A stretch of DNA of 26,025 nt, from positions 2,340,674-2,366,698 of the forward strand of contig CP070752.1 of NCBI GenBank assembly GCA_020348625.1. The letters run 5' to 3'. The translations under genes and the position numbers were made by a program. Origin of the DNA: Deltaproteobacteria bacterium. Its GTDB lineage: Bacteria; Desulfobacterota; DSM-4660; Desulfatiglandales; B25-G16. Positions 20,053 to 26,025 of the stretch are shown here, piece after piece. The notes beneath the pieces were generated by a model. It did no database searches. It saw nothing but the letters and a program-made list of their open reading frames with translations, and was not told the origin of the DNA. How positions within the stretch are numbered: the first letter of the stretch is position 1; every line of letters starts with the position of its first letter.

Positions 20053-20859
20053 ATGACGGATAAAAGGGCACTGGTAGTAGACAATGATTTCTTTTTTATG
20101 GAGTTCCTTGCTGAAGTTCTCGAGGCACGTGATTATGAGGTAATAAAGGCCTATGACGGGAAGGAGGGTATTTCGAAACTGGAGCAGGAAAACGTTGATG
20201 TGATTCTCGTGGACATGATTATGCCCAAAATAGACGGAGGGCAATTGATCAGATTCATTCGATCGAAATACCCTGACACCCGCTTTCCCATTATTGCCCT
20301 ATCAATCATTGAGCAAATGGACGGGCTGAGTGGGATAGATGCCGATTATTTCATAGCCAAGAGTCCCGCTGAAAAGATGGCCGTCCATATCGATATGGTG
20401 CTGGAGAGGATCGAAAAACGGCTTATTCCCGCTTCCACAGATGAAGTGATGATCCAGCCTGACGATATGATCCCGCGGCATATAACCAGCGAGCTCATTC
20501 AAAGCGTGAATTTTCAACAGGCAATTACCGAGAGCATTGGGGTGGGCCTGATTGTGGTTGACCGGGATGCCAGGATCATCACTGCTAACTCCCTTGCGCT
20601 CGATATCATCGATAAATCCTATGACGAGGTGCTGAATCGAGAGGCCAGTTCCTTATTTCCAAAAGAAGAACGGTCGAAGGTAATGGGCTCGCTCAGGAGT
20701 GTTCTACAAAAAACAGAATTACGCAATGTGAGTATTTTCATGCTAATCAATTCCCGAAAGGTTCAAATGACCGTCTCCCTTCTCAAGCTTGGTGGAGAAA
20801 CACACGGGTGGGTCATGAGTCTGTGCCCGGAGCCGGGAACATCTCAACGGCAAGGATGA
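20053..20859 (+). CDS. REC-PAS response regulator-like protein
   Basis: A cytoplasmic 268-residue protein with an N-terminal receiver domain (about 1-120, acidic pocket Asp10/Asp12, phosphoacceptor Asp54) and a C-terminal PAS domain (about 150-260, GVGLIVVDRDARIITANSLALDII). The conserved receiver Lys sits in AKSP rather than the standard KP, and the usual Thr/Ser is Ser in IIALSI. No output domain follows the PAS. It lies 192 bases after the ATPase gene with a good ribosome site (CGGAGG), so it may belong to the same operon or be transcribed separately; no clear promoter or terminator was found in that gap. It probably is a single-domain-type signal relay in the cluster. Confidence 0.87.
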   Translation: MTDKRALVVDNDFFFMEFLAEVLEARDYEVIKAYDGKEGISKLEQENVDVILVDMIMPKIDGGQLIRFIRSKYPDTRFPIIALSIIEQMDGLSGIDADYFIAKSPAEKMAVHIDMVLERIEKRLIPASTDEVMIQPDDMIPRHITSELIQSVNFQQAITESIGVGLIVVDRDARIITANSLALDIIDKSYDEVLNREASSLFPKEERSKVMGSLRSVLQKTELRNVSIFMLINSRKVQMTVSLLKLGGETHGWVMSLCPEPGTSQRQG

Positions 20860-20908: not shown

Positions 20909-21841
20909 CTACCTCTTGTCGAGCTTTGCTACGAGACCCCCCCTGCGCAGATATCTTCGATAGTCTTTTTCGTGGTTCTTGAGTATGTGCATGAGGTAGG
21001 CCATATGTCTTTCCAGGGCTTCCACATAGAGGTCCCGATCCAGTTTCCATCGCTGCTTGAAGTGGCTGCGCATATGTTCGTTTACTCCGCCAAGATCCTT
21101 CGCCAACCTCTGTCGGCTCATGCGATAGAAATCCCTCGTCTTTCTTAGGAGGTCCAACTCGCTTTTGTAACCCATAACGCCACCGTTTCTGAATTCGTCA
21201 AACAGGAACAGAAGCTTTTCCAGGTAAGTTCTGTCTGCCATTTGGCCCAGCAGGTCGGCGGTACCAATGAGTTTTCCCAACAGTGCAATCTCTGGAGACG
21301 GAAAGTGAATCTCGGCAATCTTTGCGCTCAGGTCAGTGCAGGTGAGGATAACAGAGGAATGCCGAAAGACCTCCGGTGATAAGCCATGGTCGGACTTATA
21401 CTGGTCCATAAAGGCAATGCTGCGCCGGACATCGGTAAGGCTCTTAAGGGTCATTTCGCCTTGCTGTTCGTCAGTTTTCTGGATATATCCCGTGTCATGC
21501 ATGAGGGCGCACACAAGGCCCAGGGTAACCTGCTTAGAGGTGAGTTGCTCACCTGAGAGGATGACACCGTGTATGAGCCGTGCCATAGCAAGAAAGGTAT
21601 CGGTCGTATGTTTGAGGTCGTGATACTGAGTGCGACAGGGGCCATATCCCGAATACTCGCCCTTGAAAAGGTCTACAATATCGGTAAAGACGAGGTCCAG
21701 CGTGGTAAAATCAAAGCTGGAAAAGAGCATAGACACAATCGTTTTGACCTCGTCAAGAACAGCACGGGGGTCTTCCATATCTATCAAACGTGAGAGTTGC
21801 ACTGTGTCTTCACGTTTTGTAACGTCAGTGAAGGACTCCAT
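20909..21841 (-). CDS. HD-domain protein resembling class I cyclic nucleotide phosphodiesterases
   Basis: A soluble 310-residue metal-dependent hydrolase. The metal motifs are YHDLKHTTD (His74, His78, Asp81) and LMHDTGY (His115, Asp116), with a further Asp in IGTADLLGQMAD near 200. The YHxxxHxxD spacing is like that of class I 3',5'-cyclic nucleotide phosphodiesterases rather than plain HD proteins. A role in cAMP/cGMP breakdown is therefore possible, though substrate cannot be told from sequence. The N-terminal 60 residues are helical. It is convergent with the REC-PAS gene and divergent from the aminotransferase operon. The ribosome site is poor. Confidence 0.85.
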   Translation of the reverse strand: MESFTDVTKREDTVQLSRLIDMEDPRAVLDEVKTIVSMLFSSFDFTTLDLVFTDIVDLFKGEYSGYGPCRTQYHDLKHTTDTFLAMARLIHGVILSGEQLTSKQVTLGLVCALMHDTGYIQKTDEQQGEMTLKSLTDVRRSIAFMDQYKSDHGLSPEVFRHSSVILTCTDLSAKIAEIHFPSPEIALLGKLIGTADLLGQMADRTYLEKLLFLFDEFRNGGVMGYKSELDLLRKTRDFYRMSRQRLAKDLGGVNEHMRSHFKQRWKLDRDLYVEALERHMAYLMHILKNHEKDYRRYLRRGGLVAKLDKR

Positions 21842-22020: not shown

Positions 22021-22050
22021 TTGACAACTCCTCGCTTTTTTCTTTATGCT
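22021..22050 (+). promoter_or_regulatory. Sigma-70 promoter of the aminotransferase operon
   Basis: A perfect -35 TTGACA (22021-22026) and a -10 TATGCT (22045-22050) are separated by 18 bases. Transcription would begin near 22057, giving a leader of about 200 bases that contains a leader peptide and terminator. Together with the divergent HD-gene promoter this accounts for the 21842-22253 gap. Confidence 0.75.
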
Positions 22051-22081
22051 CTCCCGAGAAGTTCTAGAGGGGTTTCTGGGC

Positions 22082-22165
22082 ATGATGCGTACGTCGTTGT
22101 ATTCAAGCATGAAATATTCTTATTTTTTCTTTTTTGGCTATGTCTTCGTCCGCGGCCCGGATTGA
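22082..22165 (+). CDS. Phe/Tyr-rich attenuator leader peptide
   Basis: A 27-residue reading frame (ATG 22082, TGA 22163-22165) with the ribosome site AGAGGGG nine bases upstream. It contains four Tyr and five Phe; residues 12-22 read YSYFFFFGYVF, eight aromatics of eleven. This composition is the hallmark of leader peptides of Phe/Tyr attenuators such as those of pheA and pheST. The frame is also open upstream to an ATG at 22046, but that lies in the -10 box. Its last codons cover the predicted antiterminator arm (22149-22157). A ribosome reaching the stop would block that arm and allow termination. A ribosome stalled at the Phe/Tyr codons would leave it free. Confidence 0.85.
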   Translation: MMRTSLYSSMKYSYFFFFGYVFVRGPD

Positions 22166-22187
22166 ATGCTCTAATGCAGGAATTTCG

Positions 22188-22224
22188 AGGCCGTGGAAGG
22201 ACGAAAACCTCCACGGCCTTTTTT
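22188..22224 (+). terminator. Intrinsic terminator (attenuator) with competing antiterminator
   Basis: AGGCCGTGGA (22188-22197) pairs with TCCACGGCCT (22210-22219), a 10-bp GC-rich stem followed by six T. It ends 30 bases before the aminotransferase ATG. Its left arm can instead pair with TCCGCGGCC at 22149-22157 (nine pairs, one G-U), which lies in the leader-peptide frame and would act as antiterminator. Confidence 0.9.
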
Positions 22225-22253
22225 CATGTACATTTTAGTAAGGAGAGAAGCTC

Positions 22254-23435
22254 ATGTCTGTTGCCAAGAAGATCAGCAGTTCCATTGAGAAGGCGTCATG
22301 GATAAGGAAGATGTTCGAAGAGGGTGCTATGAGAAAGGCGCAATACGGCCCGGAGAATGTCTTTGACTTCAGTCTCGGAAATCCGAACCTTGAACCTCCG
22401 GAAAAGGTTAAGACAGTCCTGAAAGAGCTGGTTTCCAGCAATTCAAAGGGCGTGCACGGGTATATGCCAAATGCCGGATTTGTTGAAACAAGGAAGGCGG
22501 TAGCCGGTTATCTCAGCAGTCACCATAACTTCACATTTGATTATGACGATGTTGTTATGACGGCAGGCGCAGGCGGGGGGATGAATGTCGTTTTGAAGGC
22601 ACTCCTCAATGCAGGTGATGAAGTAGTGGTGCTGACCCCCTATTTCATGGAATATGCTGCGTATATCGACAACTTTAATGGCAATACGGTAGAGGTACCC
22701 ACCAATCAAGACTTCTCTCTTGATCACAATGCAATTGAAAAGTCATTAGGTTCCCGCACAAAGGCAATAATCATAACCAACCCCAATAATCCAACAGGAA
22801 AGGTCTACAAGGAGGCTGAACTGAAGCAACTGGGGGAACTGTTGACCCATTATAGCAATAAGAACGGCGAGCCGATCTATTTGATATCGGATGAGCCGTA
22901 CAGCAAGATCATTTACAACGGCATGACATGCCCATCGATTTTTGATGCGTACACACAGGCTTTTTTGGTAACCTCCTTTTCAAAAGACCTTTCTCTGCCC
23001 GGAGAGAGAATCGGGTACGTAGCCGTTCATCCCGGTATTGCCGATAAAGATATGGTCACGGAGGCACTTGTCCTCTGCAACAGAATCCTGGGATTTGTGA
23101 ACGCTCCGGCCTTGATGCAACGACTGATACCGTTTCTCTTGGAGGATAGCGTAGACGCAATGCTTTATCAGCGAAAAAGGGATATTCTCTGCAAAGGACT
23201 TGAGGAAGGAGGATATACCTTTATGGTGCCGGAGGGTACCTTTTATATCTTTCCCAAGGCCCCGATACCGGACGATGTGGAGTTCGTAAGTTCACTCCGC
23301 GAGGAAAACATCCTTACTGTACCAGGCTCGGGATTTGGAGGTCCCGGCCATTTCAGGATTGCCTTCTGTACCGACGATAAGACTATTGAGGGTTCCCTTC
23401 CAGGCTTTGCCCGGGTAATGAAAAAATACAAGTAG
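22254..23435 (+). CDS. Class I/II PLP aminotransferase, probably aromatic amino acid-specific
   Basis: A cytoplasmic fold-type I PLP enzyme of 393 residues. The PLP lysine is Lys244 in SFSKDLSLPGERIGY. Also visible are ITNPNNPTGKVY (Asn/Pro motif), ISDEPYSKIIY (Asp and Tyr contacts) and a C-terminal FRIAFC with the substrate-carboxylate Arg. By sequence alone it would be an aspartate/aromatic-type aminotransferase of unclear specificity. The Phe/Tyr-rich leader peptide and terminator upstream argue that it makes or uses phenylalanine/tyrosine. AAGGAG precedes the ATG. It is the first gene of a tight operon (ferredoxin after 10 bases, then mnmA and mtaB). Confidence 0.9.
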   Translation: MSVAKKISSSIEKASWIRKMFEEGAMRKAQYGPENVFDFSLGNPNLEPPEKVKTVLKELVSSNSKGVHGYMPNAGFVETRKAVAGYLSSHHNFTFDYDDVVMTAGAGGGMNVVLKALLNAGDEVVVLTPYFMEYAAYIDNFNGNTVEVPTNQDFSLDHNAIEKSLGSRTKAIIITNPNNPTGKVYKEAELKQLGELLTHYSNKNGEPIYLISDEPYSKIIYNGMTCPSIFDAYTQAFLVTSFSKDLSLPGERIGYVAVHPGIADKDMVTEALVLCNRILGFVNAPALMQRLIPFLLEDSVDAMLYQRKRDILCKGLEEGGYTFMVPEGTFYIFPKAPIPDDVEFVSSLREENILTVPGSGFGGPGHFRIAFCTDDKTIEGSLPGFARVMKKYK

Positions 23436-23445
23436 GGAGGCTGTC

Positions 23446-23874
23446 ATGTATTCAAAGGTGGTTCTTCTTAGATTTCCTCGGGATATAGTCGATCAGCCCA
23501 TTGTGGTCAATCTGGTGAAAGAATTCGATCTTTCTTTTAACATATTGAAGGCCACGATTTACCCGAGAAAAGAGGGTATGGTTGTTATGGAGTTGGCAGG
23601 CATCCGTAAAAACTACAACGCTGGCATCAGATATCTGAAGGATCTTGGTGTCAAGGTCGACAACATTGGTCAAGACATCAGGAGAAATGAAGAAAAATGC
23701 TTTCATTGCGGTGTGTGCACGGCAGTTTGTCCCACGAAGGCACTCTATATTGCGAGACCAGAGATGAGCGTGCTCTTCGATAGGGATCGATGCAGTGCCT
23801 GCGAGCTATGTGTAACAGCCTGTCCCGCTCGTGCTATGGAGGTTAGTTTTGATAAGGCCCTGCTCGGCGCATGA
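23446..23874 (+). CDS. NIL-domain ferredoxin, 2x[4Fe-4S]
   Basis: A 142-residue cytoplasmic protein. Residues about 5-75 are a NIL domain (ligand-binding fold also found in methionine ABC transporters). The rest is a bacterial-type ferredoxin with two four-cysteine motifs (CFHCGVCTAVCP and CSACELCVTACP). NIL-ferredoxins are known partners of the homocysteine/sulfur-transfer system of anaerobes and archaea. Here the protein lies between an aminotransferase and two tRNA sulfur-modification genes, so it may donate electrons to the latter or serve sulfur-amino-acid synthesis. GGAGG precedes the ATG. Confidence 0.93.
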   Translation: MYSKVVLLRFPRDIVDQPIVVNLVKEFDLSFNILKATIYPRKEGMVVMELAGIRKNYNAGIRYLKDLGVKVDNIGQDIRRNEEKCFHCGVCTAVCPTKALYIARPEMSVLFDRDRCSACELCVTACPARAMEVSFDKALLGA

Positions 23875-23919: not shown

Positions 23920-24984
23920 ATGAGCAGACAAAACAAAAGGGTTGTTGTTGCTCTCAGTGGCGGGTTGGATAGCGCTTTCGCTGCCCTCAGCCTGATTGAT
24001 GAAGGATGGCACGTGGAAGGAATTCACCTTATCCTTCCTCTCCCGGCCAGAGAACAGGAAACAAAAGAGAAGGCCGTTAAGGCTATTGGAGAGAGGCTTC
24101 GTATACCCCTTCACCTCTTGGATGTGCGAGATCTATTCCGCAAGCATGTTATTGATTACTTCGTTCGGGCTTACTCCTCAGGGATAACTCCCAATCCATG
24201 TGTTGCGTGTAATCATCACATCAAGTTTGAGCGGATAGTCACCTGGATTCGCGACAACGGGTTTGACTATATGGCAACGGGCCATTACGCCAGAACCAGG
24301 CGGAGTTCAAACGGAACCCATGTGGATTTGCTCAGAGGGAAAGACGCGAACAAAGACCAATCCTATTTTCTGCACCGGCTCAACCAGCACCATCTGTCAA
24401 GACTCATTTTACCAGCAGGGAACAGGAAAAAAGAAGATCTTTACAGAGAAGCAAAGAACATAGACCTGCTTGGTTCCATGCGTCATGAAAGCCAGGAGAT
24501 TTGTTTTATTCCCGATAACGACTACCGGTCATTTCTGAATCGCCAGGCCGCCCGTGGCGCGTTATCATCCGGAAACATCGTCGATCTTGATGGTACGATT
24601 CTGGGCGCTCATTCCGGTACGCACGCATATACTATAGGCCAAAGACATGGGCTGGGAATTGCTTCCACTGAACCTCTCTATGTCTATGAGATCAGGGCTG
24701 AAACACAAGAGATAGTTGTTGGTCCGCGAGAGACGCTCTATTCAAAGACACTTTGTGCCGATGATTACACCTGGGTAGGAATTCGACCACGTCAAAGGGA
24801 GATACGGGTGAAGGCTCAGATACGGTACCGGCATAAACCGGCTTCTGGTACGTTGACCGTAGTCTCTGCTGATACAGTTTGTTTCGAATTTGATGATCCA
24901 CAATGGGCAATAACTCCTGGTCAGGCCCTTGTATGCTATGACGGAGAAAAAGTGCTCGGTGGCGGGTGGATAAGAAAGGCATAG
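23920..24984 (+). CDS. mnmA: tRNA-specific 2-thiouridylase
   Basis: Thiolates U34 in the wobble position of tRNA-Lys, -Glu and -Gln, using ATP and a persulfide donor. Visible are the PP-loop VVVALSGGLDSAFAAL, the catalytic cysteines Cys94 (TPNPCVACNHHIKF) and Cys195 (SQEICFIP), TGHYAR and the tRNA-recognition segment KDQSYFL. The length of 354 is normal. The P-loop Leu replaces the common Val, a minor change. It lies 45 bases after the ferredoxin gene and 17 before mtaB, forming a tRNA-sulfur pair. The start ATG at 23920 lacks a strong ribosome site. Confidence 0.95.
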   Translation: MSRQNKRVVVALSGGLDSAFAALSLIDEGWHVEGIHLILPLPAREQETKEKAVKAIGERLRIPLHLLDVRDLFRKHVIDYFVRAYSSGITPNPCVACNHHIKFERIVTWIRDNGFDYMATGHYARTRRSSNGTHVDLLRGKDANKDQSYFLHRLNQHHLSRLILPAGNRKKEDLYREAKNIDLLGSMRHESQEICFIPDNDYRSFLNRQAARGALSSGNIVDLDGTILGAHSGTHAYTIGQRHGLGIASTEPLYVYEIRAETQEIVVGPRETLYSKTLCADDYTWVGIRPRQREIRVKAQIRYRHKPASGTLTVVSADTVCFEFDDPQWAITPGQALVCYDGEKVLGGGWIRKA

Positions 24985-25001
24985 GGCTCAAACACTGCAA
25001 G

Positions 25002-26025
25002 ATGTCAAAGGCCTTTAAGGTTATTACGCTTGGCTGTAAAGTCAACCAGTACGAGTCTGCCTACTTTGAAGATTCATTGGTATCCAAGGGATGCCGAAAG
25101 GTGGGTGCAGATGGTTCGGCAGACCTAGTAATCATCAATACCTGTATCGTTACCGCAAGGGCGAGTTATCAGTCTCGGCAGGCAATCAGAAGGGCCATCA
25201 GGGAAAATCCTGGAGCAATTATCACGGTTACGGGTTGTTATGGCCAGGTGTATCCCGACGAGTTGATCGGGATTAAAGGGGTGGATGTGATTTCAGGGAA
25301 TAGGGGAAAGGAATCGTTGCCCGAGATAGTGGCTCATGGCATTCGCCATGATCCGCCCCTCGTCCTCAAGGAAGATTTCGGGCACAGGTACCCCTTCGAA
25401 CACACCAAAACCAAGGAGTTTAGTGGAAAAACGAGGGCATTTCTAAAGGTACAAGACGGTTGTGATTGCTTCTGTTCGTACTGCATTGTCCCCAGGGCCC
25501 GGGGTCCAATCAGGAGTCTGGAACCTAAGAAGGTTATGAGAGATCTGGATGACTTAGAGCAAAGCGGTTATAGGGAGGTGGTTCTTACTGGGGTTAACCT
25601 CGGGAGGTATGGTTTGGATCTGGGCAATGGAATCAACCTAACCCGCCTGCTCACCGAAATCAATACCAAAGGACGTGCACTGAGGATACGATTGAGCTCC
25701 CTTGAACCTACGGAAATAGATCTCGAACTCATTGAGTTAATGGCAAAGAGCGATTTGTTTTGCCGGCATTTTCATATTTCCTTGCAGAGCGGGGATGATT
25801 CTGTATTGAGAAGGATGAATCGGCATTATACTGCCGAGGCGATCACATCGGTGGTAAAGGATATCGTCGAACGAATACCCGGGGTTTCCATAGGTATTGA
25901 TGTGTTAGTTGGTTTTCCCGGAGAAACGCAATCGGCCTTTCATAATACCTTCGGCCTCCTGGAGGAACTTCCGGTAACCTATATGCACATATTTCCGTTT
26001 TCAAAAAGGGAGGGCACGGCGGCTG
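25002..26025 (+). CDS. mtaB: tRNA-t6A37 methylthiotransferase MtaB (3' end outside window)
   Basis: A radical-SAM [4Fe-4S] enzyme that converts t6A37 to ms2t6A in tRNAs reading ANN codons. The frame is open for 341 codons to the window end with no stop. The N-terminal UPF0004 domain has Cys12 (TLGCKVNQYES), a second Cys in INTCIVT and a third in VTGCYGQ. The radical SAM triad is CDCFCSYC (CxxxCxxC). The GCKVNQYES and RMNRHYT motifs favour MtaB over MiaB. The C-terminal TRAM region is missing because of the window edge. The ribosome site is weak, and coupling to mnmA is likely. Confidence 0.93.
   Translation, partial: MSKAFKVITLGCKVNQYESAYFEDSLVSKGCRKVGADGSADLVIINTCIVTARASYQSRQAIRRAIRENPGAIITVTGCYGQVYPDELIGIKGVDVISGNRGKESLPEIVAHGIRHDPPLVLKEDFGHRYPFEHTKTKEFSGKTRAFLKVQDGCDCFCSYCIVPRARGPIRSLEPKKVMRDLDDLEQSGYREVVLTGVNLGRYGLDLGNGINLTRLLTEINTKGRALRIRLSSLEPTEIDLELIELMAKSDLFCRHFHISLQSGDDSVLRRMNRHYTAEAITSVVKDIVERIPGVSIGIDVLVGFPGETQSAFHNTFGLLEELPVTYMHIFPFSKREGTAA

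Follow-up and report, generated by a model that had tools for sequence, protein, structure and literature searches.

What controls the aminotransferase gene at this locus, and can the way it is controlled tell us what the enzyme makes? The window, by which we mean the whole 26,025-nucleotide stretch of contig CP070752.1 (Deltaproteobacteria bacterium) that was analyzed, encodes on its plus strand a PLP aminotransferase of the PRK06836 family (22254 to 23435), assigned by a match to NF005305 of 551.7 bits against a curated cut-off of 376. The enzyme is ambiguous by its own sequence. The closest solved chain, 3ele, carries no substrate and is named just “Amino Transferase”; far behind it come aspartate aminotransferases (~147 bits) and the aromatic aminotransferase 1dju (145.5 bits), and many homologues carry the label aspartate aminotransferase in their source annotation. 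An earlier note on this DNA had read the stretch ahead of the gene as a Phe/Tyr ribosome-mediated attenuator and had inferred an aromatic substrate from it. On the strength of sequence comparisons, we consider it very likely that the leader is a ribosome-mediated transcription attenuator that senses the charging of tRNA-Phe and, for most relatives, of tRNA-Tyr as well; this reading is supported by 13 conserved leaders ahead of aminotransferase genes and by related leaders distributed over the aromatic pathway.

The elements that had been described for the leader (a promoter, a Phe/Tyr peptide with its own ribosome site, a terminator, and an antiterminator option) can all be read directly from the plus strand, at the positions that the earlier note gave. 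A sigma-70-like promoter, TTGACA-18-TATGCT (22021 to 22050), places TTGACA at 22021 to 22026 and TATGCT at 22045 to 22050, with a spacer of 18 nt. It is followed by a Shine-Dalgarno-like GAGGGG (22067 to 22072; relatives have a purine-rich stretch near the same place) and by a leader peptide ORF of 27 codons, MMRTSLYSSMKYSYFFFFGYVFVRGPD, which runs from the ATG at 22082 to the TGA at 22163 to 22165, contains nine Phe/Tyr codons, and has the same length in 12 related leaders. The putative control codons, 12 to 18 (YSYFFFF; 22115 to 22135), coincide with conserved aromatic positions, and in the masking folds described below a ribosome stalled there would free region 2, the 5′ arm of the antiterminator (UCCGCGGCC; 22149 to 22157), which lies within the last codons of the ORF. 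Region 2 is predicted to pair with region 3 (GGCCGUGGA; 22189 to 22197) in a hairpin of −26.9 kcal/mol. By folding, region 3 is common to the antiterminator and to the intrinsic terminator (22188 to 22224; −22.1 kcal/mol), which consists of a stem of 22188 to 22197 with 22210 to 22219 and a run of six T at 22219 to 22224.

Base composition does not readily account for these features in the window. Only 3 of 200 shuffles fold as well as the leader does (z = −2.45), and of the 19 codons at positions −20 to −2 relative to the stop, 8 specify aromatic residues; base shuffles average 3.4, and none of 200 reaches 8. A mechanical terminator scan with a loop limit of 8 returned zero sites in the leader stretch, unlike RNA folding. 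A plain terminator or a constitutive leader could nevertheless be imagined in which a T-rich tract reads as Phe/Tyr by chance, given that T-rich DNA encodes Phe whatever the frame. It is unlikely that the hairpin terminates an upstream gene, because the preceding ORF, taken as the gene upstream of the leader (20909 to 21841), is on the minus strand. This divergent ORF encodes an HD-domain-like protein by a weak NCBIfam match, and its position is kept in three relatives (L011, L013, and L016); further upstream, 20053 to 20859 on the plus strand encodes a response regulator with a PAS domain. That the leader elements exist is a confirmed observation, and the decisive evidence is comparative.

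We inspected orthologous genes in 85 genomes of the class to which a related MAG, Deltaproteobacteria bacterium AB_3033_Bin_183 (G001), belongs. The aminotransferase was found (E ≤ 1e-90) in 70 of these genomes, at 74 places, and upstream DNA was examined at 71 of the places over up to 450 nt, or less at some contig ends. A leader is present at only 11 of the 71; two more places have a decayed one (L015 and L017, described below), and no leader was seen at the remaining places within 450 nt or to the contig end. Together with the window and one locus from a search of the phylum (L109), this brings the aminotransferase leaders to 13. A covariance model built from 12 aminotransferase leaders only (R1) recovered strong aminotransferase leaders, scoring at least 94.9 bits, in the same 11 genomes of the class and in none elsewhere among the matches listed. 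These whole-genome searches supersede an initial contig scan with a single sequence, which had yielded five loci.

Runs of aromatic codons would be expected to be absent from orthologous leaders if the reading of the earlier note were wrong; they are conserved in all 13. Every ORF is 27 codons long and ends in TGA or TAA, one of them starts with GTG, and 21 or 22 nt separate the stop from the terminator's 5′ arm. A promoter-like site (TTGACA-17/18-TAnnnT by the rule of the scan) precedes 11 of the 13. Codon 17 is Phe without exception (TTT in 10, TTC in 3), codon 18 is Phe in 12 of the leaders and Trp in the other, and codons 12 and 15 are either Phe or Tyr in each leader. Codon position 3 has an entropy of 0.95 in the aminotransferase leaders, only slightly above positions 1 and 2 (0.71 and 0.87). 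Phe is a better-supported signal than Tyr, because codon 17 is invariably Phe and three leaders (L011, L013, and L016) have zero Tyr in codons 12 to 18. Of the proposed Phe/Tyr signal, then, the Phe part holds well and the Tyr part is the weaker one. That 13 leaders retain the ORF at one length and with its stop in place also argues against a plain terminator.

All of these peptides close with (R/H)GP and one further residue. A uniform length of 27 codons with a conserved terminus is also what might be expected of a nascent-chain arrest peptide of the tna, erm, or SecM type, which would stall the ribosome on a metabolite or a drug and not on an empty tRNA. However, the conserved end coincides with the RNA pairing of region 2, codons 12 and 15 swap between Phe and Tyr, and the peptides of other family members vary in length and sequence. 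One genome (G050) carries tandem leaders ahead of a single aminotransferase gene (L089, 1156 to 1270 and 1534 to 1648, minus strand); read by eye, the distal leader has a near-identical region 2 RNA, apparently in another reading frame and with an earlier stop, which counts against an arrest peptide. The amino acid choice, moreover, tracks the target gene, with Trp in aroK leaders and hardly any in aminotransferase leaders (see below). We therefore regard an arrest peptide as very unlikely and return to the attenuator.

In a tree of 36 aminotransferases, a single group of 17 with a support of 100/100 unites the 13 genes with leaders, 2 genes with decayed leaders, and 2 leaderless genes. The three label changes on this tree would fit a history of one gain and two losses. 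The leaderless genes are L010 and L018, where a leader was looked for upstream and none was seen. The decayed leaders (L015 and L017) have lost region 2 and their aromatic codons and keep the promoter-like site and the terminator; mnmA lies directly behind the aminotransferase in both, without a ferredoxin gene. A terminator that persists without aromatic codons is a point on the side of the plain-terminator explanation.

The aminotransferase of the window is followed on the same strand by three genes that the leader might also reach. The probable second cistron, 10 nt past the aminotransferase, encodes a ferredoxin with a NIL domain and 2x[4Fe-4S] (23446 to 23874); the probable third is mnmA (23920 to 24984, from its profile match and neighborhood), and a possible fourth is mtaB (24966 to 26025), which runs off the window and has an uncertain start, GTG at 24966 or ATG at 25002. 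The ferredoxin gene comes next after the aminotransferase in 24 of 34 genomes examined and in 8 of the 11 leader-bearing relatives, often with mnmA after it, and mtaB takes its place downstream in L012, L010, and L018. Two leader-bearing aminotransferase genes (L022 and L028) have no ferredoxin, mnmA, or mtaB gene on their strand and are flanked by mnmA and mtaB genes of opposite orientation. Because these two keep the leader without the other genes, we take the aminotransferase to be the leader's target; if the leader also governs mnmA and mtaB in the window, this would be a by-product. The genomes of L022 and L028 each have a second copy of the aminotransferase (L053 and L064), upstream of which a leader was looked for and none was seen.

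The features of an attenuator are found together here: an ORF in which codons for the presumed product amino acids are clustered, an intrinsic terminator, and a computed, mutually exclusive antiterminator with an arm that a ribosome could mask, the last of which applies at codons 17 and 18 only while region 4, the terminator partner of region 3, is unmade. We postulate that transcription would begin downstream of 22050 and that a ribosome would load onto the leader ORF. With Phe and Tyr plentiful, the ribosome would reach the stop and cover region 2 (22149 to 22157), region 3 would pair with region 4, and transcription would stop near 22224. With charged tRNA-Phe or tRNA-Tyr scarce, the ribosome would stall in codons 12 to 18 and leave region 2 free to pair with region 3 as soon as the latter is made. 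The terminator would then fail to form, and the aminotransferase would be transcribed along with the ferredoxin gene and mnmA, and possibly mtaB.

Ribosome-masking folds were computed for the window leader with the A site at codons 12, 14, 15, 17, 18, 20, 22, 24, and 28, with the leading edge of the ribosome assumed to lie 15 nt away from the first A-site base. As long as region 4 is absent, a ribosome at codon 12, 14, 15, 17, or 18 leaves the full antiterminator (−26.9 kcal/mol), one at codon 20 a weaker form (−16.3 kcal/mol), and one at codon 22, 24, or 28 none. With the ribosome at the stop codon, the terminator is the sole remaining structure. Once region 4 has been made, equilibrium folding gives the antiterminator at codons 12 to 15 and the terminator at codons 17 and 18, so that either the switch at those two codons must be kinetic or the assumed 15-nt edge is wrong. 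In 99 leaders of the wider family introduced below, aromatic residues are most frequent 13 to 9 codons ahead of the stop and do not exceed 4% at any of the last five codons, which agrees with what the ribosome-masking geometry requires.

The terminator and the antiterminator were computed for 12 of the 13 aminotransferase leaders. The terminator is present in all 12 aligned leaders, and with no ribosome the full leader adopts the terminator fold in 11 of them. Before region 4 is made, and again with no ribosome, region 2 pairs chiefly with region 3 in 11 of the 12, which is also what one would expect of a metabolite riboswitch, or of a leader bound by a protein, that works independently of translation. 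Such a leader is exceedingly improbable in our view, since no conserved structure was seen beyond the two alternative hairpins, no Rfam family matches, and conservation tracks the ORF and its stop.

Weaker R1 matches in the class lay outside aminotransferase genes. The best of them led us to 17 non-aminotransferase loci, which comprise 11 aroK genes (one cut by a contig end), 1 gene each for DAHP synthase, chorismate synthase, and 2-amino-3,7-dideoxyheptulosonate (ADH) synthase, and 3 for an MBL-fold protein; shikimate-pathway genes thus stand behind 14 of the 17. Targets were named with NCBIfam from one representative per group, and the aroK representative scored slightly below its cut-off. 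A second model, R2, was built from 30 leaders. The window leader belongs to the training sets of both models and scores 98.5 bits with R2 as a training member. R2 matched in 58 of the 85 genomes of the class (E ≤ 1e-3) and in 59 of 395 genomes of the phylum (E ≤ 1e-4, with few candidates scored per genome). It had no match at E ≤ 1e-4 in any of 196 genomes from the class to which an Oscillospiraceae MAG belongs, an empty result that carries weight only if that set includes a known positive and one in which weak leaders may be missed. Searches of more than 40 genomes, with R1 as with R2, used stricter filters and scored few candidates per genome, so weak leaders may be missed there too. A leader search in two genomes gave best E values of 0.012 and 0.82.

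We examined 104 R2 matches for their targets. Genes for aromatic amino acids follow 83 of them, and 56 of the 74 that lie outside the R2 training set: aroK accounts for 41, ADH synthase for 14, the aminotransferase for 14 (a count that includes the second, distal leader of G050), DAHP synthase for 9, aroC for 4, and trpE for 1. The rest precede an MBL-fold protein (12), acyl-CoA enzymes (3), or unassigned genes (6). Two of the unassigned matches have an aromatic gene farther on, namely aroC ~0.6 kb away past a masked stretch (L118) and ADH synthase ~1.2 kb away past another ORF (L179). In pairs such as G056:C204:7502/9338, G055:C301:7379/5634, and G048:C19:9658/12321, two leaders lie on one strand ~1.7 to 2.7 kb apart, the first followed by aroK and the second by a gene for ADH or DAHP synthase; these look like separate attenuators within one aromatic cluster.

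The wider set was also informative about structure. RNAalifold on the 12 aminotransferase leaders returned the terminator alone, with no doubly changed pair, and a wider set of leaders was therefore needed. In an alignment of 30 leaders, the terminator helix is paired in 99.1% of cells and both sides have changed in 3 of its 11 pairs. Double changes occupy 33 cells, a value that 0 of 500 shuffles reach and that compares with 0 to 2 in slid versions of the alignment; the number of doubly changed pairs is not above that of the shuffles (343 of 500). For the antiterminator, we exchanged partners among 89 leaders. Region 2 pairs with its own region 3 at a mean of −19.65 kcal/mol, with permuted partners at −17.07 kcal/mol (the lowest mean among 2,000 permutations being −17.94 kcal/mol), and, when shuffled itself, at −10.91 kcal/mol. 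Within the aminotransferase leaders the gap is small (−21.7 with their own region 3 versus −20.7 with that of other families), and the fit to the own partner owes part to common ancestry within gene groups. Compensatory changes in the terminator are thus seen across the 30 leaders and not among the aminotransferase leaders.

Codon choice differs with the target. Trp codons are present in 37 of 39 aroK leaders, 6 of 7 DAHP synthase leaders, and 8 of 12 ADH synthase leaders, and in 3 of 10 MBL-fold protein leaders, 1 of 4 aroC leaders, and 1 of 13 aminotransferase leaders, counting leaders in which an aromatic ORF was present and sorting them by a motif rule into groups slightly smaller than the final ones. 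Between aroK and aminotransferase leaders the difference has a Fisher p value of 5.5e-9, kinship being ignored. The product of aroK serves all three aromatic amino acids, and the aminotransferase would serve Phe and Tyr; the four leaders of aroC, a common-pathway gene, misfit this rule. A comparison of reading frames among the leader ORFs is biased, because the most aromatic ORF of each leader was chosen. Runs of T cannot yield the Trp codons of the aroK leaders, region 2 pairs better with its own region 3 than with exchanged ones, and the leaders are associated with aromatic genes, none of which would follow from a plain terminator with chance Phe codons. We accordingly give that explanation very little credence beside the attenuator.

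The aromatic role that had been proposed for the aminotransferase is strengthened by the presence of related leaders ahead of aroK, aroC, the genes for DAHP synthase and ADH synthase, and, in one case, trpE. If the leader is controlled by the supply of Phe and Tyr, the aminotransferase would most likely make Phe and Tyr, a role to which both its own leader and the leader family point. More broadly, and with moderate confidence, we favor the idea of an aromatic regulon in a class of Deltaproteobacteria, in which one leader RNA would have been copied ahead of ADH or DAHP synthase, aroK, aroC, the aminotransferase, and once trpE, each copy being retuned by its Phe, Tyr, or Trp codons to what the gene behind it supplies, and in which the PRK06836 aminotransferase and an MBL-fold protein of ~850 residues would have aromatic roles. 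All of these leaders would then presumably share a common descent.

The MBL-fold protein genes lie behind 12 matches (L090, L095, L104, L115, L123, L126, L129, L134, L160, L161, L162, and L165), the leaders of which encode mostly Phe/Tyr. Two complete genes (L185:7036-9597 and L186:6395-8962) encode 854 and 856 residues, and in the one protein searched against Pfam an N-terminal MBL domain was the only domain named. The leader suggests a Phe/Tyr-linked role for this protein. Phe/Tyr-rich leaders were also seen singly at L144/L189, L133/L188, and L181/L187, one of them with six consecutive Tyr; the targets there are an acyl-CoA ligase, an ADP-forming acyl-CoA synthetase-like protein, and an acetyl-CoA hydrolase/transferase-like protein with a GNAT domain. 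We considered arylacetate salvage with an indolepyruvate oxidoreductase near these acyl-CoA enzymes and dropped the idea, as no such gene was recognized by eye in the ORF starts. That check covered 10.1 and 9.3 kb with the MBL-fold genes (L185 and L186), 9.4 kb around the CoA-transferase-like gene (L187), 9.4 kb around the ADP-forming acyl-CoA synthetase gene (L188), and 2.7 kb around the acyl-CoA ligase gene (L189), with Pfam applied to the four leader-bearing genes only.

The leader of the window is apparently of a known kind, a ribosome-mediated attenuator, and it is the apparent spread of such leaders across the pathway that deserves following up. What would be new is the set of related leaders across the aromatic pathway of Deltaproteobacteria, together with a probable aromatic role for the PRK06836 aminotransferase. 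The latter would give a physiological function to an enzyme whose sequence by itself is ambiguous. The former constitutes a searchable RNA family that has no match in Rfam release 15 and that flags genes for aromatic amino acids in these Deltaproteobacteria. In enteric bacteria, aromatic genes are regulated by the repressors TyrR and TrpR; if the leaders share descent, one cis-acting RNA element would do the work of those repressor proteins here. The orphan targets behind Phe/Tyr leaders, the MBL-fold protein and the acyl-CoA enzymes, also become testable.

Several known systems resemble the window leader in part. The aromatic supraoperon of Desulfovibrio vulgaris, which begins aroA′-aroB′, is apparently controlled by attenuation according to the Merino database, as cited in PMC1173090. 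It is likewise a deltaproteobacterial aromatic operon that starts with alternative-route genes, and in our set 14 matches are ADH synthase leaders; the cited paper nowhere uses the words “leader peptide”. Leader peptides in other groups are discussed in passages of two further papers (PMC2965389 and PMC1262725). A search of the open-access literature found no description of this leader family. Rfam (release 15) returned no attenuator family in the window or in 18 related loci. For the Phe leader family, RF01859, the window leader had no match at E ≤ 10 and the 18 related loci had none at the gathering level, at which the positive controls, E. coli pheL and pheM, both matched.

The closest likeness is to the leader of enteric pheA (pheL, RF01859), which likewise has a short Phe-rich ORF, an intrinsic terminator, and a target in the Phe pathway. 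Attenuation of pheA follows a 2:3/3:4 logic in which the ribosome masks one arm. R2 gave a weak match (19.4 bits, E = 0.072), correctly placed, in the pheL region of E. coli. The two leaders differ in that pheL, by our own reading, has a GGGAGGC arm just past its stop, whereas region 2 of the window leader is inside the last codons; the window leader also mixes in Tyr codons, has an aminotransferase as its target, and lacks a conserved protector hairpin. We therefore describe them as alike in plan, with no kinship implied. The enteric pheST leader (pheM) is also a Phe leader peptide attenuator of RF01859, but it controls a tRNA synthetase and not an aminotransferase, and R2 had no match at E. 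coli pheM (the matches listed for L192 fall within 1209 to 1280 only). The trp operon attenuator combines Trp codons with a 1:2 protector hairpin, a trait of the trp subtype and not of leader-peptide attenuators at large. Such a hairpin was sought in the 12 aminotransferase leaders and no conserved one was found, a pairing specific to the window being all that was seen. The resemblance to trp lies in the ribosome-mediated logic. The one family match that precedes trpE (L177) encodes a Trp-rich peptide, NWRWWR, and the family may therefore grade into trp leaders.
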